Shown here: in pieces, positions 6,453 through 47,412 of the stretch | Layout of the letters: each line of letters starts with the position of its first letter | Position numbering within the stretch: the first letter of the stretch is position 1 | The notes under the pieces: model-generated | Databases searched by the model: none | Told to the model about the DNA's origin: nothing | What the model saw: the letters and a program-made list of their open reading frames with translations, nothing else | Program-made: the position numbers and the translations under genes | Virus record (IMG/VR): IMGVR_UViG_3300025276_000052 | Span: 1 to 47,861 of that record | Reading direction: 5' to 3' (one strand) | Source: a virus | Length of the DNA stretch: 47,861 bases

Positions 6453-6905
6453 ATGTTTATTCCACGTAAAGAACCTCCATCAAACTACTTAAAATATTGG
6501 AGAGTCGTTAGATATTTTATTCAAGCTAAGTATAAACTAACAACTGCAGAACTCGAGATGATGTTGTTCTTGTATGATGAAGATTACTTTAGTAAAGACA
6601 AGTTTAAAGAATTTGATGAACTATTGTCTTGGGATGTAAATAGGTTTGATAAACTTTTACAAAATGGTTGGATAAGCGTCTTCCGTAAACGTTCAGGAAA
6701 AACCAAGGGATTGTACGAAGTGTCGTACAAAGGAAGACGTATGTTGAGTACGATGTATAAAAAATTAAACGGAGAGGAAATACCTGAGTCCCCCTCCGTC
6801 AATCCTATATTTTTAAAAAATGTTTCTTACACCGACAAGGTGTATCGCAATATGATTATTGAAATGAATCTGTTTATAAGACAACAACGACATCTTGCTC
6901 CTTGA
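6453..6905 (+). CDS. winged-helix (MarR-like) DNA-binding regulator
   Basis: This 150-residue protein has a winged-helix pattern at residues 20-100. A helix (YFIQAKYKLTTAELEMMLFL) is followed by YDEDYFSKDKFKEF, a recognition-helix region (SWDVNRFDKLLQNGWISVFR) and a basic wing (KRSGKTKGLYEVSYKGRRML). This is the layout of MarR/PadR-type regulators. It is the only rightward gene within the leftward block. Its end overlaps the end of groES by 32 bases, tail to tail. It starts next to a divergent promoter pair, so it may control the micro-gene/lysis region or itself. The target is unknown. Confidence 0.65.
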   Translation: MFIPRKEPPSNYLKYWRVVRYFIQAKYKLTTAELEMMLFLYDEDYFSKDKFKEFDELLSWDVNRFDKLLQNGWISVFRKRSGKTKGLYEVSYKGRRMLSTMYKKLNGEEIPESPSVNPIFLKNVSYTDKVYRNMIIEMNLFIRQQRHLAP

Positions 6906-7131
6906 TAATAGTAAATGTATTATCACCCAATAACATTGTATGTCCTGCTCTTGAATCATAATAGATATCGTCATCCTGCTCAATAACAGTTACATCTGTT
7001 CCGGGGAAAATTACCATACCTTTCTTATATCTTAATTGATTTACTTCGTCTGCTCCTAAAAGCAATCCCGAACCTGTTTCAATTTCTTCTACTACTTCTT
7101 TGATTAAAATGTATTTACCTATTGGTTTCAT
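6874..7131 (-). CDS. groES: GroES-like co-chaperonin
   Basis: This 85-residue Cpn10-family protein forms the lid of the GroEL folding chamber. The N-terminal strand (KPIGKYILIKEVVEEIETGS) is typical. GSGLLL corresponds to the mobile loop that contacts GroEL through a hydrophobic tripeptide. The rest (YKKGMVIFPG, IYYDSRAGH, FTIIKEQDVVVVL) follows the GroES barrel. It is about 10 residues shorter than bacterial GroES. It is the last gene of the groEL operon, coupled by ATGA overlap to a small zinc-ribbon-like gene. Phage co-chaperonins such as T4 gp31 are needed to fold capsid proteins, and that is the likely role here. Confidence 0.9.
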   Translation of the reverse strand: MKPIGKYILIKEVVEEIETGSGLLLGADEVNQLRYKKGMVIFPGTDVTVIEQDDDIYYDSRAGHTMLLGDNTFTIIKEQDVVVVL

Positions 7132-7268
7132 ATTTTCGTATAAATTATTATTGTATCAACTAAACATTCATTATTAGTGCAAGTGTAGTTAGATACGATG
7201 CCCTCTTCAGAGTCGTCATCGCCGCCCCAAATTATTTCTTCCGCACAAACATTACAATGAATTTTCAT
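7128..7268 (-). CDS. mini zinc-ribbon-like protein between groEL and groES (46 residues)
   Basis: The frame reads MKIHCNVCAEEIIWGGDDDS, then EEGIVSNYTCTNNECLVDTI and ends IIYTKI. Cys pairs C-x2-C and C-x4-C, separated by about 21 residues, make a small zinc-ribbon or rubredoxin-like knuckle. It overlaps groES by an ATGA junction and overlaps the upstream 28-codon gene by four bases, so it is firmly inside the chaperonin operon. Function is unknown; a co-translated accessory of the chaperonin is a speculation. Confidence 0.65.
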   Translation of the reverse strand: MKIHCNVCAEEIIWGGDDDSEEGIVSNYTCTNNECLVDTIIIYTKI

Positions 7269-7351
7269 TCCTCTTCTTTATAGACTTGGAATAGCACAAC
7301 AAAAAACACAAATAAACATATGAATCCCGTATACACCAAATCTCCTATCAT
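7265..7351 (-). CDS. 28-residue single-span membrane peptide
   Basis: The frame starts at the ATG that overlaps the groEL stop (TAATG) and ends at an ATGA overlap with the next gene. The product is MIGDLVYTGFICLFVFFVVL plus FQVYKEEE, one membrane helix of about 18 residues with an acidic C-terminal tail. Overlap with both neighbours is the main evidence. It could be a small membrane regulator or a translational coupler whose peptide is unimportant. Confidence 0.5.
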   Translation of the reverse strand: MIGDLVYTGFICLFVFFVVLFQVYKEEE

Positions 7352-8946
7352 TAGTCTTTATCTTCGTATGTACGTGCCATTGTTATAATAGCGTTAGTAG
7401 ATAATATTGTTACGGCAACTGATACTGCATTTTGCAATGCTTCTTTAGTTACTTTCAAAGGGTCTATTACTCCCATTAGATACATGTCTCCCCAAACTCC
7501 TGACTTAACGTTTAAACCATAACTCGCATTATCGGCATTCATTTCGTTGAGTTTCTTTTTGTCTAGTCCTGCGTTTTCCCAAATTTGATAAAGAGGTGAA
7601 CGAAGAGCGTTAGCTAACATCATGCCTGCAACACTATCGTCTTGCTTTAAGGATTCTTTATATAGAGCAACTCCTCCTCCGGGAAGTATACCTTCTTCTA
7701 ATGCTGAACGTACTGCACATACTGCATCGTCTACTCTATCGTATTTTTCTTTTTGTTCTAAGTCTGTTTTACCACCAACATAGATTACTCCGATACCACC
7801 TGTCAAAGATGCTATACGTGATAAGATAAATTCTTTATCATGTTTAACTACTGATAGCTTGTGAGCACCCCATAACTGAGAAACTCTTTCACTAACCATT
7901 GCATCTAATGTGTCGTTCTCTTTAGTTTCTTTTAATATAATAGTAGAGTCTCTACCTACAATAACCTTGCTTGCAAAACCTAAATCATCAAAGCTCATGT
8001 GACTTAAGTCATCACCTGTCTTTTCAGAAAAATAAGTTGCACCTACTGAGATTGCAATGTCATTCATTAACTCATGCTGCTTGTATCCAAATTGTGGAGG
8101 TGTAATGTTACAGACCTTAATGTCACGTTTCATTACGTTTGCTGCTAGTGTATTAATAACTGTACCTGTAACAGGAGCAATGATAAGCAGTTTCTTTCCC
8201 TCTGAGATAATTGGTTTCAGTATGTTCTCAATTTGGAGTACGTTGCTTATCTCTGCATCCGAGACTAATATGTGAGTGTCTTCAAAGACACACTCGTCTT
8301 TCTTGTGGTCGTTTATAAAAAGATTAGATGTGTAGCCTCTGTCAATCTTTAGTCCTGTGGTAGTCTCAAAGAATGTTTCAGACGTTTGGGAACGGTCAAC
8401 AGTCACGATACCATTTTTACCAATATCAGCATACACCTTTGAGATTATGTTTCCAATCTCTATATCATTGTTTGATGCTATAGTAGCAACGTGTTTCAAT
8501 TTTGTTTTTGTAACTGCTTTAGAACTTTTCTTTAAAGAGGTAACAATTGCTTTGGTCTTCTCTACGATTTCACGTAAGACCTCAGTCTTGTTTACGCCAT
8601 CGGTAATACGACTCATACCTTCTTTTACTAAAGACTCTGTAAGAACAATCGCCGTTGTAGTTCCATCACCTGCTGCGGTAGCCGTTCTATCGGCTGCTTC
8701 CTTCATCATCTGAACCGCAAGGTTCTCTACAGGGTCTATCAATGAAACTGCTTTAGCAACAGTAACTCCATCTTTAGTAACAGTAATTCCGTGTGTGTGG
8801 TTTGGCGACTCTATTAGCACGGTCTGCCCGGAAGGGCCTAACGTTGACTTAACTGCCGAAGCAATTGTGCTAATTCCTTTAGCTAATTTGTCTCGACCTT
8901 CTTGGTCAAACTTTAAATTTTTTGGAGTATATCCTATTTCAGTCAT
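7351..8946 (-). CDS. groEL: GroEL-like chaperonin, phage type
   Basis: This 531-residue Cpn60 protein folds substrate proteins in an ATP-driven double ring. Signature motifs are STLGPSGQTVLIES (residues 34-47), KDGVTVAKAV (58-67), the ATP-site AAGDGTTTA (91-99; Asp94 equals E. coli Asp87) and GILPGGGVAL. Apical-domain spacing is normal. The C-terminus ends ARTYEDKD and lacks the flexible GGM-repeat tail of bacterial GroEL, which usually improves folding inside the cage. It starts an operon with two micro-genes and groES, an order reversed from the usual groES-groEL. A -7 element lies 21 bases upstream, and the leader has the AAATCAAATCAA-like motif shared with other genes here. It contains one copy of the 16-bp palindrome, encoding VFEDT in a normally aligned part of the apical domain. 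Confidence 0.96.
   Translation of the reverse strand: MTEIGYTPKNLKFDQEGRDKLAKGISTIASAVKSTLGPSGQTVLIESPNHTHGITVTKDGVTVAKAVSLIDPVENLAVQMMKEAADRTATAAGDGTTTAIVLTESLVKEGMSRITDGVNKTEVLREIVEKTKAIVTSLKKSSKAVTKTKLKHVATIASNNDIEIGNIISKVYADIGKNGIVTVDRSQTSETFFETTTGLKIDRGYTSNLFINDHKKDECVFEDTHILVSDAEISNVLQIENILKPIISEGKKLLIIAPVTGTVINTLAANVMKRDIKVCNITPPQFGYKQHELMNDIAISVGATYFSEKTGDDLSHMSFDDLGFASKVIVGRDSTIILKETKENDTLDAMVSERVSQLWGAHKLSVVKHDKEFILSRIASLTGGIGVIYVGGKTDLEQKEKYDRVDDAVCAVRSALEEGILPGGGVALYKESLKQDDSVAGMMLANALRSPLYQIWENAGLDKKKLNEMNADNASYGLNVKSGVWGDMYLMGVIDPLKVTKEALQNAVSVAVTILSTNAIITMARTYEDKD
8276..8291 (-). repeat. dispersed palindrome copy 1 (inside groEL)
   Basis: Plus strand reads GTGTCTTCAAAGACAC, so the TG-centred form is on the minus strand. 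Arms of seven bases are perfect. It lies inside the groEL apical domain and encodes VFEDT without a length change, so it is not an insertion. Confidence 0.85.
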
Positions 8947-9273: not shown

Positions 9274-9459
9274 CTATCTGTAAAATCCTTTACGACCTTC
9301 TGCTAACTCTATACCGTCAGCAATCATATTGACTTTCTCTACTTTTTTCATCGCCTGCTTTATATTTGCAGCCTGTTGTATGCCCGTCATCCCCATAGGT
9401 CTGTCGTTTATAAGCCTACCATTCTTAATAGTAAGACCTCCTGTGTTTTTATACTTCAT
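9274..9459 (-). CDS. small protein of unknown function in the control region (61 residues)
   Basis: The product begins MKYKNTGGLTIKNGRLINDR, then PMGMTGIQQAANIKQAMKKV, EKVNMIADGIELAEGRKGFYR. It is basic, with a predicted helix in the second half (GIQQAANIKQAMKKVEKVNM). It stands alone between its own TATATTTG -7 element and a strong terminator, so it is a single-gene transcription unit. Lone, highly expressed small genes at a phage control region are often regulators or host-takeover proteins, but nothing in the sequence proves that. No homologous family is recognised. Confidence 0.6.
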   Translation of the reverse strand: MKYKNTGGLTIKNGRLINDRPMGMTGIQQAANIKQAMKKVEKVNMIADGIELAEGRKGFYR

Positions 9460-9472
9460 GATTTCTTTTTTA

Positions 9473-9480
9473 CAAATATA
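9473..9480 (-). promoter_or_regulatory. -7 element (TATATTTG) of the 61-residue gene
   Basis: The minus strand reads TATATTTG 13 bases before the ATG, matching TAnnTTTG. A T-rich tract lies just upstream. The -33 element is not obvious. Confidence 0.5.
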
Positions 9481-9976
9481 CGAAAAAAATATTATCAGTT
9501 ATATGTAGTGTTTTGGTTCTATACCGTCACACGCCGCACCTCCGCCTCAGGGAAGTCAGTTTTTTTGTCAAACTTTTTTCGATTTCCAAAATTTTTTCCC
9601 TCTTTTTTTGGCGTTTTTATGTAGGCCCTGCCCCTGCTATGACTAGGCCCTGCCCCTCTGCGCTCGAGCCCCTGCCCATGCACCTTCTTGCCCCTGCATC
9701 TCTGCCCGCTTGAGCCCCTGCTCCCGCCATTGCCCCGAGACATGTCGAGTAGTGTCCTTGAAGACACAAGGAGGAACTCCTTAGCCCTTTGGCCATGTGT
9801 TTTATACCTAAACAAATCTTGGGGAATAGAGCGGCGCATTTCAGCCCATATAATTACTTATAGAATTAGACAATTATTAAACTAAAATTGCCTATATTTA
9901 CACTGTAGGGAATAGGTAAACGACCAAATCTCTCATAACAGTCTGATAATCAGACACATAACTAAAATCTAGTAAT
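9481..9976. other. control region with C-rich iterated island; candidate replication origin
   Basis: This stretch of about 500 bases has no convincing gene. Bases 9621-9740 form a GC-rich, strongly C-over-G island in AT-rich DNA. It holds a 14-base direct repeat TAGGCCCTGCCCCT (9622 and 9644, period 22), GAGCCCCTGC twice (9666 and 9712) and TGCCCCTGC (9689). The minus strand is therefore rich in G runs that could form quadruplexes. A palindrome copy (9752), the hairpin AAGGAG-GAA-CTCCTT (9768-9782), an AT-rich stretch (9845-9900) and a perfect inverted repeat GTCTGAT-A-ATCAGAC (9941-9955) follow. Iterons next to an AT-rich stretch at a divergent point suggest an origin or master control region; this is inference. 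A 106-codon minus-strand frame exists but looks spurious. Confidence 0.55.
9752..9767 (+). repeat. dispersed palindrome copy 2 (control region)
   Basis: Reads GTGTCCTTGAAGACAC, one substitution (C for T) from the consensus; the same variant occurs at 47389. It is intergenic, just after the C-rich island. Confidence 0.8.
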
Positions 9977-10618
9977 ATGAACCAAGAATTATTATCAATC
10001 GAATCGGCATTCCTTAGACTGCCACAAGTACAGGAGTCATTAAACATGGCCGACATCAAACGAGCAAATCGTAATGTGCAGAATGCTCAGAAGAAAAAAT
10101 TTGAGCACACAATCACAATGTCCAAGCTAGTATGCAATGCAGTAACATTTTTTGAATCAAGTGCAGGCATCGAATTATTTGCAGAGGAAGGTATCCAATG
10201 GACAAAAGCAGAATTAGGTTTAAAAGTATTCGGATGGCAGAAGAGTTTTTTCTACAAAGTAGTTAAGGTAGGAATGCTAGACGATAGAATTGTAGATGCA
10301 TTCAAAGTAAAATGTGAGGAGAATTCTGACATTAGAAGAAGTGTAGCTGAGTTGATAAAATTTGCATCAACAATAGATTTATCTACAATAGAACATGACA
10401 TCGATGCAACAGACGAAGACATTGCAGATGCAGAGCAAGAAGCTATAGAGTCAACAGAAGTTGAATCAGAAGAATCAGTAGCTACAATATTCACTCTAGC
10501 TTACAAATCTGATAACGGAAACGTTGCAGTAAGAATCAATGAGAACAATGAAGTAACTACAAGAAACGATAGAGAAGCGATTATGTCAGCTATCGAATTC
10601 CTAACTAATTTAATCTAA
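9977..10618 (+). CDS. first gene of the rightward module, unknown function (213 residues)
   Basis: The N-terminal 125 residues are mostly helical and basic (MADIKRANRNVQNAQKKKFE; KAELGLKVFGWQKSFFYKVV). The segment 'WTKAELGLKVFGWQKSFFYK' resembles a helix-turn-helix region. Residues 130-165 are an acidic linker (ATDEDIADAEQEAIESTEVE). The C-terminal 45 residues look like a small beta domain (TLAYKSDNGNVAVRINENNE). It is the leading gene of the early module, right after the candidate origin and a perfect inverted repeat, so a DNA-binding or regulatory role is possible. No family is recognised with confidence. Confidence 0.6.
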   Translation: MNQELLSIESAFLRLPQVQESLNMADIKRANRNVQNAQKKKFEHTITMSKLVCNAVTFFESSAGIELFAEEGIQWTKAELGLKVFGWQKSFFYKVVKVGMLDDRIVDAFKVKCEENSDIRRSVAELIKFASTIDLSTIEHDIDATDEDIADAEQEAIESTEVESEESVATIFTLAYKSDNGNVAVRINENNEVTTRNDREAIMSAIEFLTNLI

Positions 10619-10961: not shown

Positions 10962-10977
10962 GTGTCTTTGAAGACAC
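10962..10977 (+). repeat. dispersed palindrome copy 3 (before amidoligase gene)
   Basis: Perfect GTGTCTTTGAAGACAC, flanked by A and T to make the full 18-base form. It occupies the gap between two genes and ends 20 bases before the amidoligase ATG. Confidence 0.9.
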
Positions 10978-13498: not shown

Positions 13499-13514
13499 GT
13501 GTCTTCAAAGACAC
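13499..13514 (-). repeat. dispersed palindrome copy 4 (leader of amidotransferase gene)
   Basis: Plus strand reads GTGTCTTCAAAGACAC, perfect arms, CA centre. It sits in the 5' leader about 20 bases after the -7 element and 22 bases before the ATG, so it would be transcribed as a hairpin. Confidence 0.9.
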
Positions 13515-14631: not shown

Positions 14632-14647
14632 GTGTCTTCAAAGACAC
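14632..14647 (-). repeat. dispersed palindrome copy 5 (after amidotransferase gene)
   Basis: Perfect GTGTCTTCAAAGACAC on the plus strand, flanked so that pairing extends to a stem of about 12 bases (GGgTAGTGTCTT with AAGACACTAtCC, one G-U pair). It lies 12 bases after the stop and directly before hammerhead ribozyme 2. Confidence 0.9.
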
Positions 14648-14652
14648 TATCC

Positions 14653-14703
14653 TCCGTATCAAGATGTTTGTCTTGGCTGATGATTCCATAAGGATGAAAC
14701 GGA
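14653..14703 (+). ncRNA. type III hammerhead ribozyme 2
   Basis: The core CUGAUGA (14677-14683) and GAAA (14696-14699) are intact. Stem III is UCCGU/ACGGA (5 bp), stem I is UCAAGA/UCUUGG with loop UGUUUG, and stem II is UCC/GGA with loop AUAA and a U-U mismatch next to the core. The cleavage triplet GUA predicts cutting after 14658. Compared with copy 1 at 11970, stem I and stem III differ in sequence but keep pairing, which is covariation. The stop-to-cut distance (39 versus 41 bases) and cut-to-start distance (62 versus 64 bases) are almost the same in both copies. Confidence 0.85.
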
Positions 14704-14720
14704 AACTAAATACTTTTATA

Positions 14721-16107: not shown

Positions 16108-16252
16108 AGACACGGTGTCGTATCCAATTAGACACGATAGTGTGTCTTCAAAGACACAACCGAACATTGTTAGCACGCTAACAAAATTATTTGAATCATT
16201 CGGCGAGATATATAAAGCTGACTTTAACCCCTTAAACAAAGAAACAAAATGA
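16085..16252 (+). CDS. small unknown protein containing the palindrome (55 residues)
   Basis: The frame reads MKNLSENKDTVSYPIRHDSV, then SSKTQPNIVSTLTKLFESFG and EIYKADFNPLNKETK. The ATG is chosen because upstream in-frame sequence overlaps the DUF1599 gene deeply. It ends with an ATGA overlap to the DnaA-like gene. One palindrome copy lies inside and encodes VSSKT. The second half looks helical. The gene may exist partly as a carrier of the palindrome; its protein has no known relatives that I recognise. Confidence 0.5.
   Translation: MKNLSENKDTVSYPIRHDSVSSKTQPNIVSTLTKLFESFGEIYKADFNPLNKETK
16142..16157 (-). repeat. dispersed palindrome copy 6 (inside a small gene)
   Basis: Plus strand reads GTGTCTTCAAAGACAC; arms are perfect. 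It is in frame within the 55-residue gene, in a different reading phase from the copies in groEL and the helicase. Confidence 0.85.
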
Positions 16253-16551
16253 AATTAGATGTATTTAATAACTATGTAGCAGAGGTCTGTAACCGATTTG
16301 CCATAGATGAGGAAACCTTATTTGTTAAATCAAAACGAAGAGATATAGTAGATGCAAGACACTTACTATATTACTTATGTTACACAAGACCAATGCGAAT
16401 TGTATACATCCAAGAGTACATGGCTGACAGAGGGTACACTATAAACCATTCATCAGTAATTCACGGAATCTCTATTGTTGATGGCAAGCTTGACACAGAT
16501 AATGATTACGTAGAAACGGTTAAAGACATTCAAAAATGCAGTATACTTTAG
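16249..16551 (+). CDS. DnaA domain IV-like DNA-binding protein A (100 residues)
   Basis: The protein is little more than a DnaA C-terminal (domain IV) helical fold. The segments 'FVKSKRRDIVDARHLLYYLC', 'YIQEYMADRGYTINHSSVIH' and 'GISIVDGKL' match 'v..R.r.iv.aR..a.yL......s...IG...grdHsTVihai'. The 'NHSSVIHG' part corresponds to the DnaA-box-recognition helix (DHTTVLHA). The AAA+ ATPase part of DnaA is absent. A second gene with the same domain lies at 23372. It could bind DnaA-box-like sites in the phage or host origin; that is inference. Confidence 0.75.
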   Translation: MKLDVFNNYVAEVCNRFAIDEETLFVKSKRRDIVDARHLLYYLCYTRPMRIVYIQEYMADRGYTINHSSVIHGISIVDGKLDTDNDYVETVKDIQKCSIL

Positions 16552-18334: not shown

Positions 18335-18350
18335 GTGTCTTTGAAGACAC
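18335..18350 (+). repeat. dispersed palindrome copy 7 (after exonuclease gene)
   Basis: Perfect GTGTCTTTGAAGACAC in the full 18-base form, starting eight bases after the exonuclease stop codon. No T-run follows, so it is not a standard terminator. Confidence 0.9.
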
Positions 18351-18969: not shown

Positions 18970-21393
18970 ATGACATATAACGTCACAATCTTCAAAAACA
19001 TTAAAGAGACTGAAGCACCGTTTCATAGAGAACTATCTTACATACTAAAGAGAATAAAGGATGGAGCAACAAAAGACTTAGTAAAGAAAATACGAATTGA
19101 AACTAATAAGACAGAGAGGAACGAACTAAAGAAAAACCTACCTGCTATTTGTTTTAGCGGAATGTTCAACAAACGAAATGATTCTTCGCTAATGGAACAT
19201 AGTGGAATCATATGTTTGGACTTCGATGGATATCCAAAGAAGAAACTTCTACTAGAACATAAGGCAACTTTAACAAGGAGCAAATATGTTTACTCTGTAT
19301 TTATATCACCATCGGGTAATGGACTTAAGGTTTTAGTTAAAGTACCAACTGATGTAGACAATCATAAGAACTATTTTAATTCATTAGACAGACACTTCGA
19401 TTCTGAATACTTCGACAAGATGTGCAGTAATGTATCTCGAGTTTGTTATGAATCATATGACCCTTTACTTCACGTAAATGAAGGTTCATTGTTATGGGAT
19501 AAAATAGAAGAGCCTGAATATGTTGAGGTAAATCAAACAACTGATGCTCCAAGTATACCAATCACGGATGAGAATAAAGTAGTAGAGATATTAGTAAAGT
19601 GGTGGGTAAAGAAATATCCAATGGTTGAAGGACAAAGAAATCAAAACGTATTTGTTTTAGCTATGGCCTTTAATGACTATGGTATTAATAAATCATTAGC
19701 AGGATATGTTCTTAACCAATACATAACTGCGGACTTCACGCAGTCAGAGATTAATAGAACTATAGATTCGGCGTATGCAAATACATCAAACTTTGGTACT
19801 AAGTATTATGAGGATGAAGACAGAATCAATCAGATTAAGATTAAGCTAAAACGTGGCGTATCAAAAAAAGAAATCCGCTATCAACTGCAGGAGTCAAATG
19901 TTGATAGCGAGACAATAGATTCGGTTCTTGATAGAGTCGAGAAAGAAAACTCCATAGCTGATTTTTGGACTAAGACAGATAAAGGTGTTATCAAAATAGT
20001 ACACGTTTTGTTTAAGCAATTCCTTGAGGACAATGGATACTATAAGTTTTGTCCCGAAGGAGGGAAGAGTTACCTGTTTGTTTGTGTTACAAATAATTTA
20101 ATATCACATACATCAGAGAAAGAAATAAAGGATTTTATACTAGGACACTTAATTGAGTTAGATGACTTAAGTATATACAACTACTTCGCTGACAACGTAA
20201 GGTACTTTAGAGAGGAATTCCTGACACTTCTAGGAACAATTGACATCTACTTCATCGCAGACACAAAAGAGGCCTCTTACCTGTACTATCAGAACTGTGC
20301 AGTTAAGATTACTAAGAGTGGAATAGAGTCTATTGATTACATAGACTTAGGAGGTTATGTTTGGAAAGACCATGTTATAAATAGAAAGTTTACCGAGTGT
20401 GAGATGGTTAGTGATTACAGGACTTTTATATCAAGAGTATGCGGAGATGATGAGGCGAGAGTAAGAACAATGGAATCAACTATTGGCTTTATGATGCATG
20501 GATATAAAAACCTAAGCTACTGCCCTGCAGTAATACTTAATGATGAAATCATATCAGACAATCCCGAAGGAGGAACAGGCAAAGGTGTTTTTATGAATGC
20601 ATTGTCTCAGATGAAAAAAGTAGTAATCATAGATGGTAAGCAGTTTGCTTTCGAGAAATCATTTCCTTATCAAACGGTATCAGCAGATTCACAAATATTA
20701 GTATTTGATGATGTGAAGAAACACTTTGACTTCGAACGATTGTTTTCAGTAGTGACCGAAGGTCTTACCTTGGAAAAGAAGAATAAAGATGCAATCTCTA
20801 TTCCGTTTGCAAAGTCTCCAAAGATTGCCATTACAACTAATTATGCTATCAAAGGTTCGGGTAATTCATTTGCTCGTAGAAAGTGGGAGGTAGAACTATT
20901 TCAACACTACAATAAAAACCATACTCCTCTTGACGAGTTTGGTAAACACTTTTTTGCAGATTGGAACGAAGAGGATTGGTGCGGTTTTGACAACTACATG
21001 ATTAACTGTTTACGAACTTACTTAGGCACAGGACTTATTAAAGGAAAGTTTGTCAACTTAAAAATAAGACAACTCTCAGCAGAAACATCTCACGACTTCA
21101 TCGAGTGGTGTGGATTGGTTCAAGGTCATTCAGCAAATACTTCATTAGAAATTAATGCAAAAGTAATGAAGCAAGACTTATACTTCGACTTCATCGGAGA
21201 GTATCCCGATTATGGGCCGAAAGCTAAAATGACTATCAGTAGAACAAGATTCTATAAGTGGTTAATTAGTTATGCTTTATTCACTACAGGTCAGCAACCC
21301 GAAGAAGGAAGAGACCCAACAGGAAGATGGTTAAGAATTAAACCAAGAGTATTGCCAACACAATCAGAAATGTTTGATGCAAATGGAAACTGA
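18970..21393 (+). CDS. primase-helicase (VirE/BT4734-type primase domain plus SF3-like helicase)
   Basis: This 807-residue protein is the core replication enzyme. The N-terminal domain (about 45-165) matches the BT4734/VirE-N family: 'HSGIICLDFDGYPKKK' (metal-binding Asp84/Asp86), 'SPSGNGLKVLVKVP' and 'SRVCYESYDP'. A helical primase-C-like segment (about 195-275) follows. The helicase part has a Walker A NPEGGTGKGVF (531-541), a Walker B-like ILVFDD, and 'KIAITTNYAIKGSGNSFARR' with an arginine-finger region, as in SF3-type phage helicases (DUF5906-like). It would lay primers and unwind the fork. No DNA polymerase gene is in the window. It overlaps the next gene by about 17 bases. Confidence 0.85.
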   Translation: MTYNVTIFKNIKETEAPFHRELSYILKRIKDGATKDLVKKIRIETNKTERNELKKNLPAICFSGMFNKRNDSSLMEHSGIICLDFDGYPKKKLLLEHKATLTRSKYVYSVFISPSGNGLKVLVKVPTDVDNHKNYFNSLDRHFDSEYFDKMCSNVSRVCYESYDPLLHVNEGSLLWDKIEEPEYVEVNQTTDAPSIPITDENKVVEILVKWWVKKYPMVEGQRNQNVFVLAMAFNDYGINKSLAGYVLNQYITADFTQSEINRTIDSAYANTSNFGTKYYEDEDRINQIKIKLKRGVSKKEIRYQLQESNVDSETIDSVLDRVEKENSIADFWTKTDKGVIKIVHVLFKQFLEDNGYYKFCPEGGKSYLFVCVTNNLISHTSEKEIKDFILGHLIELDDLSIYNYFADNVRYFREEFLTLLGTIDIYFIADTKEASYLYYQNCAVKITKSGIESIDYIDLGGYVWKDHVINRKFTECEMVSDYRTFISRVCGDDEARVRTMESTIGFMMHGYKNLSYCPAVILNDEIISDNPEGGTGKGVFMNALSQMKKVVIIDGKQFAFEKSFPYQTVSADSQILVFDDVKKHFDFERLFSVVTEGLTLEKKNKDAISIPFAKSPKIAITTNYAIKGSGNSFARRKWEVELFQHYNKNHTPLDEFGKHFFADWNEEDWCGFDNYMINCLRTYLGTGLIKGKFVNLKIRQLSAETSHDFIEWCGLVQGHSANTSLEINAKVMKQDLYFDFIGEYPDYGPKAKMTISRTRFYKWLISYALFTTGQQPEEGRDPTGRWLRIKPRVLPTQSEMFDANGN

Positions 21394-22846
21394 TGTAATA
21401 GAAAGACGACTAGGCTTTTCAAATGAGATGATGTACAATCAATGCTCTTTGTTAGCAAACATCGTTAATAAAACTGAAGAGGTAAAAGTCGGTAGAGGAA
21501 AGAGTGCTAAGGTTATTCATAAACTGAAATACACCACCGACAAAGCATCTCTAGATAGAATAAACAGAAGCGTTGAACATTATAAGAATCTAATGGAATC
21601 TAAAAAATCAAAAATAAAACTAAGAGAATACCAAAAACAAATAAGTAGAGATGCTTGCTTAAAACTATACACAAATGGATTTGTATATCTTGCTATGGAG
21701 GTAAGGACAGGCAAGACCCTAACAAGTTTAAGTATGGGTGTGCTTACAGGATGTAAGAACTTATTGTTTATTACAAAGAAAAAAGCTATCAGTAGCATTG
21801 AATCAGATTATGATTTACTAGCTCCTGACTATGAGATAACAGTAATAAATTACGAGAGTATACACAAATTACCCGAGTCGGGTAATTATGATATGATAAT
21901 TCTTGACGAAGCGCATGGCATGGGAGCATTTCCTAAACCAAGCAAAAGAGCTAAGCAGGTAAAAGAATTGATTGTAAAAAACAAATCATATGTTGTTTTA
22001 CTTTCGGGAACTCCAACTCCCGAGTCTTATAGTCAAATGTATCATCAAGTATATGGAATCCCTAAAAATCCTTTTACTTCATTCAAAAACTTTTACAGGT
22101 TCTGTGATGAATATGTTAACGTTACTGACAGAAAGATAAATGGCTTAATGATTAGAGACTACTCTAAAGGTCTAGATAAAATTGTAGAAGCCATGAAGCC
22201 ACATACGATTAGCTATTCTCAGAAAGAAGCAGGGTTTAAAGTAAATACTCGGGAGCACACATTGTATGTTCCTATGAGTGAACTAACATATAAACTAACA
22301 TCAACATTAAAAAGAGATTTAGTTATAGAGGGAAAAGAAGAAACCATATTAGCAGATACTCCTGTTAAATTAATGATGAAGCTACATCAAATGTTTTCGG
22401 GAACTGTTAAATTTGAGTCAGGCAACTCTACTATACTAGACTTATCTAAGGCTGAATATATTTATGACAACTTTGGAGACGCAAAAGTTGGAATATTTTA
22501 TAAGTTTAAAGAAGAACTTAAAGCTCTCATGCAGGTTTATGGAAAAGAAAACTTAACCACAGAGCTTAGTGTCTTTGAAGACACAAATAAAAGCATAGCC
22601 TTACAGATAGTTTCGGGCCGGGAAGGAATTTCTTTACGCAAAGCTGAAGCATTAGTTTACTACAATATAGATTTTAGTGCTACAAGCTATTGGCAATCAA
22701 GAGATAGAATGACAACTAAAGATAGATTAGAAAGTGATGTGTATTGGATATTTTCAGAGAAGGGAATAGAAAAACAAATCTATGCTGCCGTAAGTAAGAA
22801 GAAGGACTACACAGTCAGACACTTTAAAAGAGATTTATTATCTTAG
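21377..22846 (+). CDS. SF2 (SNF2/DEAD-like) DNA helicase
   Basis: An ATG inside the end of the primase gene is chosen over a TTG one codon earlier. The 489-residue protein has an SF2 motor. Motif I is MEVRTGKTLTS (107-117), a Walker A with Arg-Thr before GKT. Motif II is DEAH (177-180), motif III is LLSGTPTPES, and motif VI is WQSRDRM (439-445, Gln and two Arg). The N-terminal 70 residues are basic (SKKSKIKLREYQKQ) and include a Q-motif-like 'LREYQ'. Proteins like this are common next to VRR-NUC nucleases in phages. It probably remodels forks or joint molecules. One palindrome copy lies within it, encoding VFEDT. Confidence 0.85.
   Translation: MQMETDVIERRLGFSNEMMYNQCSLLANIVNKTEEVKVGRGKSAKVIHKLKYTTDKASLDRINRSVEHYKNLMESKKSKIKLREYQKQISRDACLKLYTNGFVYLAMEVRTGKTLTSLSMGVLTGCKNLLFITKKKAISSIESDYDLLAPDYEITVINYESIHKLPESGNYDMIILDEAHGMGAFPKPSKRAKQVKELIVKNKSYVVLLSGTPTPESYSQMYHQVYGIPKNPFTSFKNFYRFCDEYVNVTDRKINGLMIRDYSKGLDKIVEAMKPHTISYSQKEAGFKVNTREHTLYVPMSELTYKLTSTLKRDLVIEGKEETILADTPVKLMMKLHQMFSGTVKFESGNSTILDLSKAEYIYDNFGDAKVGIFYKFKEELKALMQVYGKENLTTELSVFEDTNKSIALQIVSGREGISLRKAEALVYYNIDFSATSYWQSRDRMTTKDRLESDVYWIFSEKGIEKQIYAAVSKKKDYTVRHFKRDLLS
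22569..22584 (+). repeat. dispersed palindrome copy 8 (inside helicase gene)
   Basis: Perfect GTGTCTTTGAAGACAC, in frame as VFEDT within the C-terminal helicase lobe. Confidence 0.85.
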
Positions 22847-23093: not shown

Positions 23094-23433
23094 TAGATTC
23101 GAAGTAGAGGATTGGTTTGCAGAGAAGATGGCTCGTTTAGAACATGAAACACAAAACGAAATCATTTACTCTATCGCTACGCATATTCATTTCTTTCCTA
23201 AAGAAGAAGGATGGACTCAAGAAATTTACGGGGTAGTAAAAGAAGTAAATTTATTTTACGCTCTTGAATACCTAAACGAAAAAGGAAGTATACCTATCGT
23301 TTGTGATATACATTTTGTAGATTCAGATGAGTACTTAGACGCAATATTACAAAAGAAAACAATCGAGACATATGAAATCAAGAATACCCGCCCTACCAAA
23401 AGAAGTAAATTTAATTATAAAATTAACGAATGA
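23062..23433 (+). CDS. unknown acidic protein (123 residues)
   Basis: The product (MDSKQKYIEDSRFEVEDWFA...) is acidic and looks helical in its first half (FAEKMARLEHETQNEIIYSI), with a more mixed second half (NEKGSIPIVCDIHFVDSDEY) and a basic end (RPTKRSKFNYKINE). It overlaps the VRR-NUC gene at its start and the DnaA-like gene at its end, by 32 and 62 bases. Such long overlaps show strong packing of the replication operon. No domain is recognised. Confidence 0.5.
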   Translation: MDSKQKYIEDSRFEVEDWFAEKMARLEHETQNEIIYSIATHIHFFPKEEGWTQEIYGVVKEVNLFYALEYLNEKGSIPIVCDIHFVDSDEYLDAILQKKTIETYEIKNTRPTKRSKFNYKINE

Positions 23434-23908
23434 AGTTTATAAATGCAACTTACAAGATTCAGGCAGACAAAGAAATAATGTAAACGCAAGAATGACATGC
23501 TCTTATGTTCTTAGACAAAGAGGATATGTTCTTTCACAGATAGGAGGCTTTTTAAATAAAGACCACGCAACCATTCTTCATTACTTAAAAAATGTAGATT
23601 GGTATTTAAAGACAGATAAGATTTTTCTTTCTTGCTTTCAAAGAATAACCGAAGAATTCAATAATGACTTTAATCCTGTACACGCTATGGCGTTAGAGGA
23701 ATTAAAAAAAGAAGTTTTTTCTTTGAGAACCGAATTAAAAGAATTAAATTTGGAAGTAGCAGGACTAAAACTCGCTCTATCTGAGACTAATAAATCTAAT
23801 GGTCGTGTTGAAGTTCTTGTTGATATGGTTAAACAAAGAACGAGATTAGGAACAGAACGAGAAATAGAAGGCAAATTGCACAGATGGTACAATGGAGTAT
23901 ACAATTAA
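23372..23908 (+). CDS. DnaA domain IV-like DNA-binding protein B with coiled coil (178 residues)
   Basis: Residues 10-80 carry a DnaA domain IV pattern: 'LIIKLTNEVYKC', 'RQRNNVNARMTCSYVLRQRG', 'VLSQIGGFLNKDHATILHYL'. 'NKDHATILHYLKNV' corresponds to the DnaA-box-recognition helix DHTTVLHAVRKI. Residues 105-150 form a leucine-rich coiled coil (LRTELKELNLEVAGLKLALS), which suggests dimerisation. The end is basic. The AAA+ part is missing. It differs from the smaller DnaA-like protein at 16249 in the added coiled coil. A possible role is phage origin recognition or interference with host DnaA. The overlaps with both neighbours support the chosen start. Confidence 0.75.
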   Translation: MKSRIPALPKEVNLIIKLTNEVYKCNLQDSGRQRNNVNARMTCSYVLRQRGYVLSQIGGFLNKDHATILHYLKNVDWYLKTDKIFLSCFQRITEEFNNDFNPVHAMALEELKKEVFSLRTELKELNLEVAGLKLALSETNKSNGRVEVLVDMVKQRTRLGTEREIEGKLHRWYNGVYN

Positions 23909-25148: not shown

Positions 25149-25555
25149 GATTTGAATCAGAGGTAGACTTGTCACGAGAACAAAAGGCTATAAAAACATT
25201 TGTAAATACATTTCAAGGCTCGTTTAAAAAACTAGACCCTAATGATATAGACTTTAGAGTGTTTGATAAAAACGGAGATATGATTGCTTATGCCGAAGTT
25301 AAAGGTCGTCTTAAGAAATATAAAGATGCCTTTCCTTTGCCCGTAGCAGCAAGAAAACTTGTTAAACTAGCGGACAAAAGACTTAACCCTGTTATGATAT
25401 GGGCTTGTGACGATGGTATTGTATATGCAAAAGTAAATCAGATAAGCGGTACAATAAGATGGGGAGGCAGGCTTCCACGTAAAGGTTCTTACAATGACCA
25501 AGAACTAATGATATATTTTAACAGTACAAGTAGTTTTAAATATATTTCCTACTGA
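25145..25555 (+). CDS. PD-(D/E)XK nuclease-like protein
   Basis: This 136-residue protein has 'DIDFRVFDKNGDMIAYAEVK' (Asp36, Glu51, Lys53), a typical D...ExK nuclease core. It also has a conserved 'RKLVKLADKRLNPVMIWACD' helix-strand unit that in similar phage proteins completes the fold, and 'GTIRWGGR' near the end. It may be a resolvase or a debranching nuclease. It is the last rightward gene; its stop codon overlaps, tail to tail, the stop of the giant leftward gene, leaving no space for a terminator between the two modules. Confidence 0.7.
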   Translation: MRFESEVDLSREQKAIKTFVNTFQGSFKKLDPNDIDFRVFDKNGDMIAYAEVKGRLKKYKDAFPLPVAARKLVKLADKRLNPVMIWACDDGIVYAKVNQISGTIRWGGRLPRKGSYNDQELMIYFNSTSSFKYISY

Positions 25556-28500
25556 CCACCATATATACTTTTCATTAACTCTTTATTCATTTGTTCCATT
25601 TGATAATTAACATCTGTAGTCTTATCAATTTTAGGATACATTGTTTTGTATAACTCAGGGAACAGTTTCTTTACATCCGATTTATTCATACCCTTATTAA
25701 CAGGTTTTTTCATCATATATCCCGGTCTGTAAGACTTGGTTATACCCATTAAGTCATAAATATTTTCGTCTGAAAAATCTCCACCAAAAGTTTTAAATAA
25801 AGCAACAGGAGCAGTTGTTTGAACACCCGCAGCTAATTCCAATACAGGAACTATTACTTTAGCAACAGATGCCTCACCTTTCTGAGCCTCTACAATACCT
25901 TTACTTACTCTTCTAAAAACATTTGTAAACGGATTCACACCTTCACTAACAGGTCTACCTTTGTTACTTAAAGGTGTGTCTGCATTATTTAGAGCTTCTT
26001 CAATTGCAGCTCCTATTAAAGGTATTTGATAAACTAACGAAAGGCCTGTTGCAGCTAATTTAACTTGTCTCCAAGCTTCATCTCTTTCTTCGTCATTACC
26101 TCTTAGTATAGCTCCTGAATATGATGCCATGGTAAACATAGCATTGGCAGCCGACCAAGACAAAGCTAAAGCTCTAACGTCTTTTGTAAGAGGAACTTTC
26201 TTTTGAGCAACTTGCGAGTATATATTATTAGATGAACTCATTACTTTATTCATAAGTAAAAATATTGTACTTCCAAACATTGTAAAGAACCTACTACCTG
26301 TGTCCGTACCCTGTTGAACTCCAACTTTCTCAGAAGCTCTTCTTGTTTGTTGTGTTGAGTTATATTCGTTAAACTTTTCAAGAGCTAAAGCTGCATTCAT
26401 TCCGTTTTTAATATTTCTATTGTAAGCTGCTTTATAACCAAGTACACCTAAAATATCTCCTGCAACAGTATTAAATCCTGCTGCCGTATCAAAACCACGA
26501 ACACCTTTACCTAATTTATCTTTTCTGTTTTTATATTTAGGAGCGTTTCTTCTTCCACCTGATTCTAATCCAAACGTATCTCCTTCTAAACCTCTAACTA
26601 AACGATTCTTAAAAGTACCTGACATTGCTTTAGCTTCTCTTATTTGTTTTGGAAGAGTTGCTAAAACCGCAGCATAATCTAACGCCATTCCTACCATATC
26701 TATTGCAAGGTCTACTCCCGGAATTATTGTCGTCTTTCTTCCTAAGTAACTATACTCTTCAAAAGCTTGTATAAATGAAGATGCTTGCTTAACTACTTGA
26801 ATAGGTTTAAATGATAATGCATAATTTACAAATCTACCTTGCAACCAACTTGTAGCATCTGCATCCATTTTAGGGCCTGCAGTAGGATTAATCATATAAG
26901 ATAGACTACGAGAGAAAAGTTTGTCAGTTGCAGTTTCTCTTAAAAGAGTATTAATTGCAGGGGATTTTAATACAGTATTCATTTGTTTTACTGTAAGAGC
27001 ATAAGCTTTATACCTTTCCATTGCTTGAATGTGGTCTTCAACTACTTCTGAAAAATCAAAACCTAGAGCTATATTCCCTGTAACATCTGTTCTGTCTTTA
27101 AGAGAAGGAGCAAACTCTGCAGAAAATACTTTAGCAAAGTCTCCGCTCAACATATCAGCAGCCGTAACTGTACCGCTTAAAGTCATAGTAGGAAAATAGT
27201 TCTCTACTTTTCTTAAACCAATATCGTTTGCTTGTATGTATACTTCATTTACACTTTCAAAATAAAAGTTACTAAAGTAATCCATTACCATGTCAGACAT
27301 AATCATATTGTCTTCCCCTACAAACTCTTCTAATTGTTGCATCTTAGCCGGTGTGAATCCCTGTGCTCTTAGCTTATCTCTTTGGATTTTGTTTTTCTCT
27401 AATGAAAGAAGTCTTAAAGCCTTGTCTTTAGTTATGGCTTTCTCATCATATGTATTGTCTGTCTTTGAATTTCTTACATTAAGAATACTTATTGTGTCTT
27501 CACCCAAAGAATACTTCCAATCTTTCCAAGTCTTAAAGCCAAGCTTCTCAGCCATAGCATTTATTTTGTCCTCTTGAACAAAAACTCCTGTGTAATATCT
27601 TTCGTCCGCTCTGTTTATACCTTTATAAACATAGTCTTGAAACATGTTACCTCTAGTTCCTCTGTCTAATACATTTGCTAATGTTCCAAAATGAACACTT
27701 GTATTACGTAAGTATTTTTTTAAACCTGTTGGCTCATACTTTTGGTCGGCTGCAAATTCTGATAAGAATTCTGTAATCCCTTTAAATAAACCTTTATCGG
27801 ATAGTGATTTTCTTATACTTGCTTTTGCGTTTTGTAGTTCATTACCTTCTAAAAGCTTTCCGTTTTCACCAAACAGTTCAGGAAAGTCTCTTTCAATCTG
27901 AGCATCAAACTCTGCTACAATTTTCTCAGTTTCAGCTCTTCTTAATGCTCTTCTGTTATTTAATCTAGCTATAGATTCTTTTGCAGTAGCCTTGGTGTCT
28001 GCTAAAACTTGCTCTACTTGATAGTAATCCATTGCTGCTATGTCAGCATAAGTATCATATGCTAATTGCTTGTCCAACAAAAATCTTTCTTCAGAAGATA
28101 TTTTCTCCTTGTTCGCTAACTTTTGATTTATTACATCTATTTGGTCAGCGTTAATGCTTTTATCAAAAGCAGTTAATCCATCTATATCATTAGCAATAAC
28201 CATATCTAAAACTTGCTTAGAATAAACAAAATACCTTTGTCCATAAGCATCTACTCCTTTGCCACGTATCTTACCACTTTCAGTTTTTTTGAATTGAGCT
28301 TTCTTTTTAACAGTAGCTAATAAGTCTTTAATCATATTGGTTCTTATAGTCTCTCTTATAGTAACTATATCTTCCATTAACAATAAAGCTTTTCCTTTAA
28401 AGTTTTTTTGATTTGTAGAGTTAATTGTTCTTAGTAATTTATCTACTTGACCTTTTGTGTATTTGGTATTCTTAGGTAAAAGTTTTCTAACTATATTTCT

Positions 28501-31500
28501 TAATCGTTTTTGAGCGTCAATAAGATTATCAGCACCAATCTTTTGTTGTTTAAGATTGTTTCTAATTTCAGCGATTTCTTTACTAACTGTTGTGTTTGCT
28601 CTAGTACCTAATACTCTATCAAAACCTACACGTAATTCTTGCTGAGTAACTTCTGCTTGAACCTTATAGATTGAACTTTCCAATAATAAGTCTTGTGCTT
28701 TTTGTCTTACCTCAGCTAACGTTCTTTTTCTAGGATTTGGAATTGCTTTGCCTGTTTCACTATCAAGAAGCACACCATCACTTTCTACTGTTGTGTTTGC
28801 GTAATCATTTACTTTGTCTTTTAACTCGTTAAACAAAGCTCTTCCAACATTTACACCACCTTCAACATTAGTAAATTCTAAAGGCATTTCAAGAAACGCA
28901 TCAATATGAACTTTCATAGCAGTATTAATTGCTTTAGCAGGAAATTTTCTATTCTTTAAAACAACTCTAATTGAAGCATCACTAAACCCATTCAGCCTGC
29001 CCTGTTCTATAATACCCTGCATTGATTGACCACTACTGAAAGCGGCTTCGGGATTTTTCATCTGAATCAACTGAGCATCAGTCATCTTTAATTTCTTTCC
29101 TGCAAAGATGTCTGCGAGTGCAGTACCTAGGAATTCATCTAAAGAGAGGGCTTGAATCTGTGCAGGAGTTAGGTCATTAGATAGACTAAATTGTTCTTTA
29201 ATTGATTTCCAAATACCAAGCAACCATTCCTGAAACTTAGACCTTAAAGATGCATCTGCAATACTTTGGCCCTTATTACCAATAAGAATTGCCATGGCTT
29301 CATTGGTAGCTTTTTTAATGTCACCGTTGAATATTACTAACTGTCTAGCAAACTCTGCGTCTTGCTGCACAAGCTCTGCTCCTTTATTATAAATAGCAGT
29401 TCCTTTTTTAGTAGTCTGTAAGTAGTCTGTCCATACGTGCCCCATCTCGTGGATAGCAGTATTAAATAATTGAGAATCTGAATTATGTGTTTGTGGATTT
29501 ATATAAATATCTCCATCAACTGTAACACCATAAATTACTTCGTTCCCTTTTAGGTATACTTTAACTCCGGGAGATTGTATTACATTTTGAAAGGTAGCTG
29601 CATCAGTAGATATAGCGACACTTGGAAAAGACACATTTAAAAAGTTTATTAGTTTTGTTGAGTTCTCAATGTTACCTTCTGTTACTGCACCTATAAATTC
29701 TAATCCGGGAAGTCCGTTCTGAACACCAACCGTTTCAGTTAGTATAGTTCCTACACTTGATGGTTTTAATTGACCTTCTTCTAAAGTCTCTTGTCCTTTT
29801 TTCTTTTTACTATTTTCTACTTGTTTAGGAGTAAATGTTTTTCCTTTAGCTTCATCTTTAGTAAGACCAACTATCGCATTATTAAATGCGGTAGGGAATG
29901 CATCTTGAATAGGAATCGACTCTTCTAAAACTCCAATGTTTCTTCCCCTAACTCCCCAATCATAATTGGGATGGTTAGTTTTAATTACCTCCGGATTTAA
30001 CACATCAATACCTTGAATTGCAACCACACTTCTTTGTGGTACATTTTTCATTTGTGGGTCAGTAATTAAATCAGTAATTTCAGAAAGAGACAGTAATGTT
30101 CTACTTTCAGCAGGCATGTTTTCTAATAAGATAGAAGGTACTAAAGAATTTGGTTTACCTGCATTAGTTGTTTCTCCTGCTCTGTTAGGAGAACCAAACG
30201 CTATAGTCTCTAACAATACTCTACGTGAGGGTAATGTTAATGTTTTTAAAATTTTAGCATCTAAAAGTTGTTCAATGCTTTCAACGCTTTGAGCCTTACT
30301 AAGCAACTCTTGTTTTTGTTTAATTGTTTTACTATACGCCTTAGATGTTAATTCAGAAAGTTTAGCTCCCTTTAGACCTATACCTGTTTCTACTGCAGCT
30401 TCTAGCTTAGCTATATCAATTGTAGTTTGTTCTATAAACGCCTCTAAAGCTTTTACTTTATTTTCCTTAGGTATCTTGGTAAGATTATCAGCTAAAACTC
30501 TAAACGTTGCTTCGTTAGATAGCAAAGAACCTTCACCCATTTTTACAACAGTTAAAGGAACTAATCCGTTGTGTTCAGGATTTTCCTTCCACCACTTCTT
30601 AAATAAAGGAATGTTTGCCATATAAACTTCCTCTGCTTTAATAAGCATATCATTGGCTTCTTTTTCTGTAGTGTTAGCCCATGCTGCTCCTTCGTTTCCT
30701 TCTGTTTCAGTAAATCCTAAACCACCTTTTAAATCAACAATAACATTTCCTGTTTCAGGATTTGTAATATTACCTGTAGTAAGTTGGTCTGATATAGTAA
30801 ATACTGTAGGAATACCATTTATAATCTGTAAAGAAGCCGTTGTAACCGGACGGTTTGTTCTGCTGCCTAACTCTTTACCGTCTATAGGAACTCTTTTACC
30901 TGAGTTTACAACAGTTTTTTCGTTACCCGACACCATTGCATCCATTCTATTTAATTCTAGCTCTTCAGCTTCAATCTGAATGTCATTATCAATGTTACCG
31001 TCTAAGCCTTCTTTCATTCTGAAATCAACTTTAGGCCCGTCATTAAGTGAGTTTTCTAAATCACTAACTTCCTCGTTTAATACTTTTGACTCTGACTTAA
31101 GTTTTTTTGATATACCTTTTATTTGTTTTTTTATTTCAGATATATTTTCTTTTACTTCAACAATATTATCTTTAGCCGCTTGTTTTAATTCTTCAATAGC
31201 ATCTGCCTTCTCTTGCTTAGGCATTTTCTTTTTCCTAGTCTCTGCTATATCAGTTTTAAGTTCTTGTCTTATGCTAAGGATTTCGTTTTGTTGGTCTTCA
31301 ATCTCTCCTTCAAAACTTGCAACCTCTTCCTCTAAAGGATTTATTTCTAATCCTGACTCTAACGAGTTCTGCCCGTCATCTTGGACGTTGGCTTCTTCGT
31401 TAGTTTCTTCGGCAAACTCGTTCTCGAGGAGTACTCGTTCTCCCACCTCTGTGCTATTTTCGGTTTGTTTTGGTGCATCCACCTTCTTTGTGCTTGACTT

Positions 31501-47375: not shown

Positions 47376-47412
47376 TAAAAAAGGGATAGTGTCCTTGAAG
47401 ACACCATCCCTT
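47376..47412 (-). terminator. terminator after the capsid gene, built around a palindrome copy
   Basis: The minus strand folds AAGGGAT-x-GTGTC ... GACAC-x-ATCCCTT, a stem of about 12 pairs with one mismatch, followed by six T residues. The centre is palindrome copy 10. It lies 15 bases after the stop of the major capsid gene. Confidence 0.85.
47389..47404 (+). repeat. dispersed palindrome copy 10 (in capsid-gene terminator)
   Basis: Reads GTGTCCTTGAAGACAC, the same C variant as at 9752. It forms the upper stem of the terminator at 47376-47412. Confidence 0.85.

Follow-up and report, generated by a model that had tools for sequence, protein, structure and literature searches.

Several phages, for example lambda, P4 and T7, have replication origins within divergent control regions between their early and late genes. 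The locus described here resembles such origins in being single-copy and non-coding, in lying near promoters and in placing a T-rich element beside strand-asymmetric DNA, in a genome that encodes a primase-helicase and DnaA-domain proteins. It differs from them in that it has no conserved iterons and a fast-changing C-rich tract, and its own role as an origin is putative. As in ParB-parS, a 16-bp palindrome is present in several copies and a helix-turn-helix protein is encoded beside one of them; unlike in ParB-parS, no ParB domain was detected in this 213-aa protein and the copies are concentrated in the early operon. A G-block in the locus (a G-run, one base and a second G-run, in a control region) recalls conserved sequence block II of mitochondria, although the block is decayed in the genome studied here and there was no sign of transcription in the needed direction. 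The stoperators of mycobacteriophages are a dispersed phage operator system (PMC9283540). Like stoperators, the palindrome has many copies per phage genome, mostly in short intergenic gaps, together with a candidate phage DNA-binding protein; unlike them, it also occurs at conserved codons within genes, at the tips of terminators and in hammerheads or adjoining them, and the 213-aa protein has no Pfam or PDB relative.

We analysed a stretch of 47,861 nucleotides (hereafter, the window), positions 1 to 47,861 of the IMG/VR virus record IMGVR_UViG_3300025276_000052. A preliminary description had drawn attention to a C-rich island at 9621-9740 as a candidate origin or regulatory RNA. Comparison with related phages indicates that this stretch is a fast-changing spacer within one widely conserved DNA control region between the early and late gene blocks. 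The features of this region and the genes discussed with it are as follows, with the strand given where one was assigned.

9473-9480, minus strand: -7 box of the leftward promoter that serves the groEL/structural block, TATATTTG in leftward reading; consensus match, at the same place in aligned relatives
9497-9516: box AGATA..GTAGTGTTTGGG (in the window, AGTTATATGTAGTGTTTTGG), candidate late-activator site; from the alignment
9603-9616: T element TTTTTTTGGCGTTT, closing the rigid module on the right; from the alignment, with fixed spacing
9617-9751: C-rich low-complexity tract, the island of the preliminary description; composition, repeats and positional homologues
9705-9736, minus strand: the only canonical G-quadruplex motif in the window; not kept in most relatives
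9752-9767: palindrome GTGTCCTTGAAGACAC, which ends the tract; place conserved in aligned relatives
9893-9900, plus strand: -7 box (TATATTTA) of the rightward early promoter; TTTG-N19-TATATTTG in most of 23 aligned relatives
9977-10618, plus strand: 213-aa helix-turn-helix protein and putative palindrome binder; invariant KVFGWQKSFFYK-type core, AlphaFold model and co-variation
16249-16551, plus strand: stand-alone DnaA domain IV protein, 100 aa; PF08299, E 3.5e-08
23372-23908, plus strand: second DnaA domain IV protein, 178 aa; PF08299, E 1.8e-07

In the alignment, the locus begins with the leftward -7 box, followed by the AGATA..GTAGTGTTTGGG box, ...GAAA.CGACTTTTTTTT, the G-block GGGGTGGGGG, the T element TTTTTTRGCNTTTT, the C-rich tract (97-218 nt), the palindrome, a purine block and the rightward promoter. 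The rigid core of the module consists of the G-block, 48 nt (a distance kept in most relatives) and the T element TTTTTTGGCGTTTT, with the tract directly after it; the G-block is decayed in the window and its nearest relatives. The -7 consensus of Bacteroidetes, described for Flavobacterium johnsoniae, is TAHHTTTG (PMC6847099), and both -7 boxes of the locus fit it. The leftward promoter has no -33 TTTG at the usual position, from which we infer that it needs an activator. The C-rich tract sits upstream of both divergent promoters and therefore within neither primary transcript, so it was treated as a DNA element and not as leader RNA. A 12-nt exact repeat (TCTATACCGTCA) is found at 9308-9319, in a 61-aa gene, and at 9518-9529, in the conserved left module. 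A 106-aa ORF on the minus strand (9519-9839) was judged spurious, as it has no Pfam or PHROGs match and crosses the hypervariable tract. In the named genome MW202828, the hypothetical ORFs UOF82531 and UOF82532 overlie the module and the low-complexity tract (42896-43295) and are probably not genes. A phage GroEL (531 aa) and a GroES-like protein are encoded at 6874-8946 of the window, with MW202828 as the closest named relative (58.7% identity).

The island had been described as strongly skewed toward C over G, built of iterated units and placed where leftward and rightward transcription part, and all three observations held. Positions 9623-9742 (120 nt) comprise 57 C, 25 G, 25 T and 13 A. 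Across 100 first-order Markov versions of the window, in which every 120-nt stretch was scanned, the largest C or G count averaged 39.2 (sd 1.9) and never exceeded 46; the runner-up among the real stretches had 41, and the tract is the strongest compositional outlier in the window. The repeat TAGGCCCTGCCCCT occurs at 9622 and 9644 with a period of 22, GAGCCCCTGC-type copies lie at 9661-9675, 9683-9697 and 9707-9721, and four of the five occurrences of GCCCCTGC in the window fall inside the tract (reversed control, 0). These repeats are not clean iterons, as the units are degenerate and their spacing runs from 22 to 24, and a search of viral contigs with TAGGCCCTGCCCCT gave scattered single matches only. 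Strand bias and gene direction both change at the tract.

Direct search of viral contigs found 29 relatives of the 213-aa gene and a profile found 61, and in most of them a C-rich stretch lies 300-420 nt before the gene. With further contigs added to these 61 loci by a pattern search, the module was found in more than 70 viral contigs; most contigs are metagenomic, and genes in the relatives were called with a simple script. The module behaves as a single-copy, conserved, non-coding cis element, found at one place in each record with an exact match, the sole exception being a duplicate at the contig end of G025. Among 50 distinct tracts, 35 were C-rich, 1 was G-rich and 14 were other (counts across relatives ignore kinship), and half of the tracts (25/50) fell within the lowest 5% of their own locus's 3-mer entropy. 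When the 39 distinct islands of the nearer clade were pooled, the base fractions were C 0.39, G 0.20, A 0.16 and T 0.25, with 32 islands clearly C-rich and 7 not clearly so. The polarity of the tract is conserved and its sequence is not: some relatives have ACGC, GT, CCTT or GGGGCTC repeats instead, and in others (L342, L348 and L286) it is replaced by AT-rich or hairpin-bearing sequence. Such replacements, and the unconserved sequence, are what would be expected if the tract were neutral low-complexity junk tolerated between two promoters; we find this very hard to credit, as its place, length range and C>G polarity are kept across distant phages. Both L283 and L286 have the island swapped for a non-C-rich segment, which in L286 contains a long perfect hairpin.

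Three genomes (G046, G048 and G050) have the module and the tract without a detectable 213-aa relative and without the GTGTC palindrome, so module and tract together are the basic unit; no other over-represented palindrome was found in G046 or G050 either. To this unit, the clade with the 213-aa gene adds the dispersed palindrome at the right edge of the tract and a host-type early promoter. This layout recurs near 42.8-43.9 kb of the circular genome MW202828, whose G-block is likewise decayed and whose tract is of a C-rich/ACGC type. A nucleotide search of the region against named phages gave no match, and no description of the locus was found in the open-access literature searched. The suggestion that the island is a foreign segment of host origin was rejected, given that relatives carry the tract at the same position and that the neighbouring 213-aa gene was unmatched in 84,980 bacterial and archaeal genomes. 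A full module was also seen at 643-692 of L379, a contig binned in an Aliivibrio MAG that is probably a mis-binned phage contig.

Closely related sequences indicate that the tract is slippage-prone and hypervariable, with repeat units gained and lost within one population. The G025 contig extends past a full turn of the circle and includes the region twice; the two copies match over 230 nt apart from one CTCCTG unit in the tract. In the close pairs L269/L271 and L307/L308, there were 0 gap events in the module and 6 and 8, respectively, in the tract; in L273/L282, an example of more distant pairs, gaps occurred in module and tract alike. Of 73 contigs, 13 end at most 400 nt away on the tract side and none does so on the module side, a clustering of ends that would also be expected if the tract were a DNA end or packaging (pac/cos) site, with the variation and breaks reflecting real genome ends. 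We consider a packaging site improbable: MW202828 is annotated as circular, its terminase (29-31 kb) is distant from the module near 43 kb, and repeat variation within the population explains the breaks better. We read the breaks at the tract as assembly failure in a variable repeat, since most near-complete contigs break at other places and several contigs self-close with assembly-type overlaps of 75, 123 and 127 nt. At the end of another contig (L011, 1-180), an inverted start of the 213-aa gene is fused to the middle of the C-rich island, which could be a chimera produced in assembly or amplification, or else a fold-back intermediate.

Our preferred reading, held tentatively and with slightly less than even confidence, is that positions 9473-9900 form the one divergent control locus of the phage and most likely hold its origin of replication. 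The tract is accordingly read as the strand-biased, slippage-prone flank of a putative origin set within the early/late promoter region. We base this reading on the single copy, the family-wide conservation, the T-rich element beside a strand-biased flank and the position at the divergence point of the map, and also on two conserved proteins, each a stand-alone DnaA domain IV, and the encoded primase-helicase. The earlier proposal of a candidate origin is compatible with these findings, given a conserved single-copy non-coding module at the lone divergence point; the C-rich repeats are not conserved in sequence, and for this reason are better regarded as flank or spacer than as initiator-binding iterons. 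A GC-skew test at 4-fold sites showed no break opposite the locus, and the coding-strand skew was if anything higher on the wrong side. There were no conserved iterons at the locus and no DnaA boxes common to the relatives; the boxes are fixed in spacing and not repeated, and the only conserved palindrome is the one also present at dispersed sites. Counting against an origin are the decay of the G-block here and in the closest relatives, the 7 islands of the nearer clade that are not clearly C-rich, and the fixed spacing between the module and the leftward -7 box, which fits a pure promoter element as well.

That spacing is central to a different account, in which the module does nothing more than activate the late leftward promoter from upstream: a phage activator binds boxes at fixed distances to serve a promoter that has a -7 and no -33, and the tract, itself inert, spaces or insulates the divergent promoters from each other. 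We regard this account as distinctly possible, though we lean away from it. The leftward -7 box and the T element lie a constant 140-141 nt apart in most relatives, the conserved boxes resemble activator sites, and each genome has one late block and one copy of the module; yet a promoter alone leaves unexplained the polarity and slippage of the tract, beyond -140, in many phages. A late-promoter control region is a close rival of an origin, and the two can coexist.

For an origin at this locus, an initiator would bind the module, the best guess being the conserved DnaA-domain-IV pair aided by the primase-helicase (18970-21393), and the T-rich element would be where the DNA opens. Once single, the G-poor, C-rich strand would remain free of structure; the G-rich strand would make synthesis pause, and slippage would add or remove repeat units. 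A dimer of the 213-aa protein on the palindrome may couple the locus to the dispersed sites, probably restraining or organising the early operon. This would provide a precise and testable origin and control locus for abundant uncultured podovirus-like phages with Bacteroidota-type promoters.

The two DnaA-domain-IV-like proteins had been recognized in the preliminary description as candidate binders of the island, and their identity was confirmed by Pfam (PF08299 in both). At least one DnaA domain IV protein was found in 23 of 24 related genomes, whichever palindrome was present. As they occur whatever the palindrome, these proteins do not explain the palindrome by the tract, and they are still candidate binders of the left module.

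The region did not behave as a regulatory RNA. Besides the position of the tract upstream of both promoters, an Rfam search of the region gave no match, its single-strand folding was unremarkable (z about -1.1), and alignment folding of the left module on both strands predicted 0 pairs and no covariation. The proposal that the G-rich complementary strand could form quadruplexes is matched in the window by the one canonical minus-strand motif at 9705-9736, and does not extend to the relatives, among which four G-runs were not conserved and the three-tetrad motif was present in just 6 of the 39 distinct islands. Together with the conserved C>G polarity, the motif could suggest a quadruplex or R-loop switch, by which a quadruplex or hybrid of the G-rich minus strand, or of its RNA, would prime replication or block transcription. 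Such a switch seems to us as unlikely as a packaging site, given how few islands have the motif and that no promoter was seen for leftward transcription of the tract.

The palindrome at the right edge of the tract (summarized as GTGTCYTYRARGACAC) has 10 perfect copies in the window, none with 1-2 mismatches and five with 3 mismatches; shuffles gave 5.1 matches at up to 3 mismatches, so the 3-mismatch copies are at chance level. It was present in all 28 records having the 213-aa gene, with 4-16 copies each (reversed pattern, 0), that is, in many exact copies per genome and beyond chance, as in a dispersed operator. In addition to the copy at the tract, those in the window are listed below.

8276-8291: in groEL, at gene offset 655; the offset is about 655 in nearly all relatives
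10962-10977: intergenic
13499-13514: intergenic
14632-14647: immediately before a hammerhead-like ribozyme
16142-16157: intergenic
18335-18350: further copy
22569-22584: in the SNF2-type helicase gene; other lineages have other palindromes at the same codons
31788-31803: within the gene of the 3097-aa virion protein
47389-47404: at the tip of a terminator-like hairpin

Intergenic copies are commonly about 30-45 nt ahead of start codons, and their flanks are more often paired, with the copies placed on stems (2.52 vs 1.87 +- 0.09 in permutations); under a loose rule, 24 of 162 intergenic sites are on terminator-like hairpins. Along the direction of transcription, the centre of the palindrome is biased to CA over TG (68:21, counts that ignore kinship). 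The palindrome was also considered as an RNA hairpin and rejected in favor of a DNA site, because the half-sites vary independently, the coding copies have no paired flanks and there is no centre bias at the island. The 3097-aa virion protein (25549-34842, minus strand) belongs to no PHROGs family and has sub-threshold Pfam matches only, including a weak metallopeptidase-like one; no domain supported it as an N4-type RNA polymerase with hairpin promoters.

The 213-aa protein, and not the DnaA-like pair, likely binds the palindrome. Its AlphaFold model (mean pLDDT 86) sets helices 77-85 and 89-99 as a helix-turn-helix, which contains the core KVFGWQKSFFYK, nearly invariant in the GTGTCYT clade and altered elsewhere. 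No Pfam domain was above the cut-off in 21 members of the family, and hence no ParB domain; the protein had no PDB match by sequence or fold, and a BFVD fold search returned four uncharacterised viral proteins. Genomes with distant relatives of the protein lack the window palindrome and have another of the same shape: GTCCGTNNNNACGGAC in G036 and G038, a TCCGTTAACGGA-type in G037, GTCTGTNNNNACAGAC (15 copies) in G054 and G055, and GTGTCGTTAACGACAC in MW202828, where all 14 copies are in the early operon. One set of codons in the SNF2-type helicase gene contains AGTGTCTTTGAAGACACA, AGTCCGTTTGAACGGACT or AGTCTGTTCCAACAGACT depending on the lineage, an in-frame swap seen across the window (22569-22584), G038, G051, G054 and G055 that changes the encoded peptide between SVFEDT, SPFERT and SLFQQT; G037 has no palindrome there. 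That palindrome and protein change together, and in place at the same helicase codons, is a strong comparative argument for recognition of the palindrome by the 213-aa protein and for the importance of site position. We propose GTGTCTTCAAAGACAC as the putative site of the 213-aa protein, and GTCCGTTCAAACGGAC and GTCTGTTCGAACAGAC as those of the G038 and G054 proteins.

Judging from these comparisons, the chances seem evenly balanced that a dedicated helix-turn-helix protein and a lineage-specific 16-bp palindrome form a genome-wide address system seeded at the origin-like locus, whose sites would be rewritten across the genome upon a change of specificity, including those at the helicase codons and at the hairpin tips of terminators and hammerheads. 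The phages also offer a natural set of protein-site pairs that apparently differ in specificity, with different palindromes at identical genome positions, which would allow asking how a DNA-binding protein and its many fixed sites co-change and what the dispersed sites are used for.

A candidate type III hammerhead was found on the plus strand in an early intergenic gap (14651-14705), right after a palindrome copy; its score (30.6 bits, E 4e-5) is below the Rfam gathering score of 48.5 (RF00008). One relative has a Hammerhead_3 above the gathering score (L243:7077-7132, RF00008, 49.2 bits), and the relatives have up to 5 hammerheads per genome, often with the palindrome adjacent or capping stem III.
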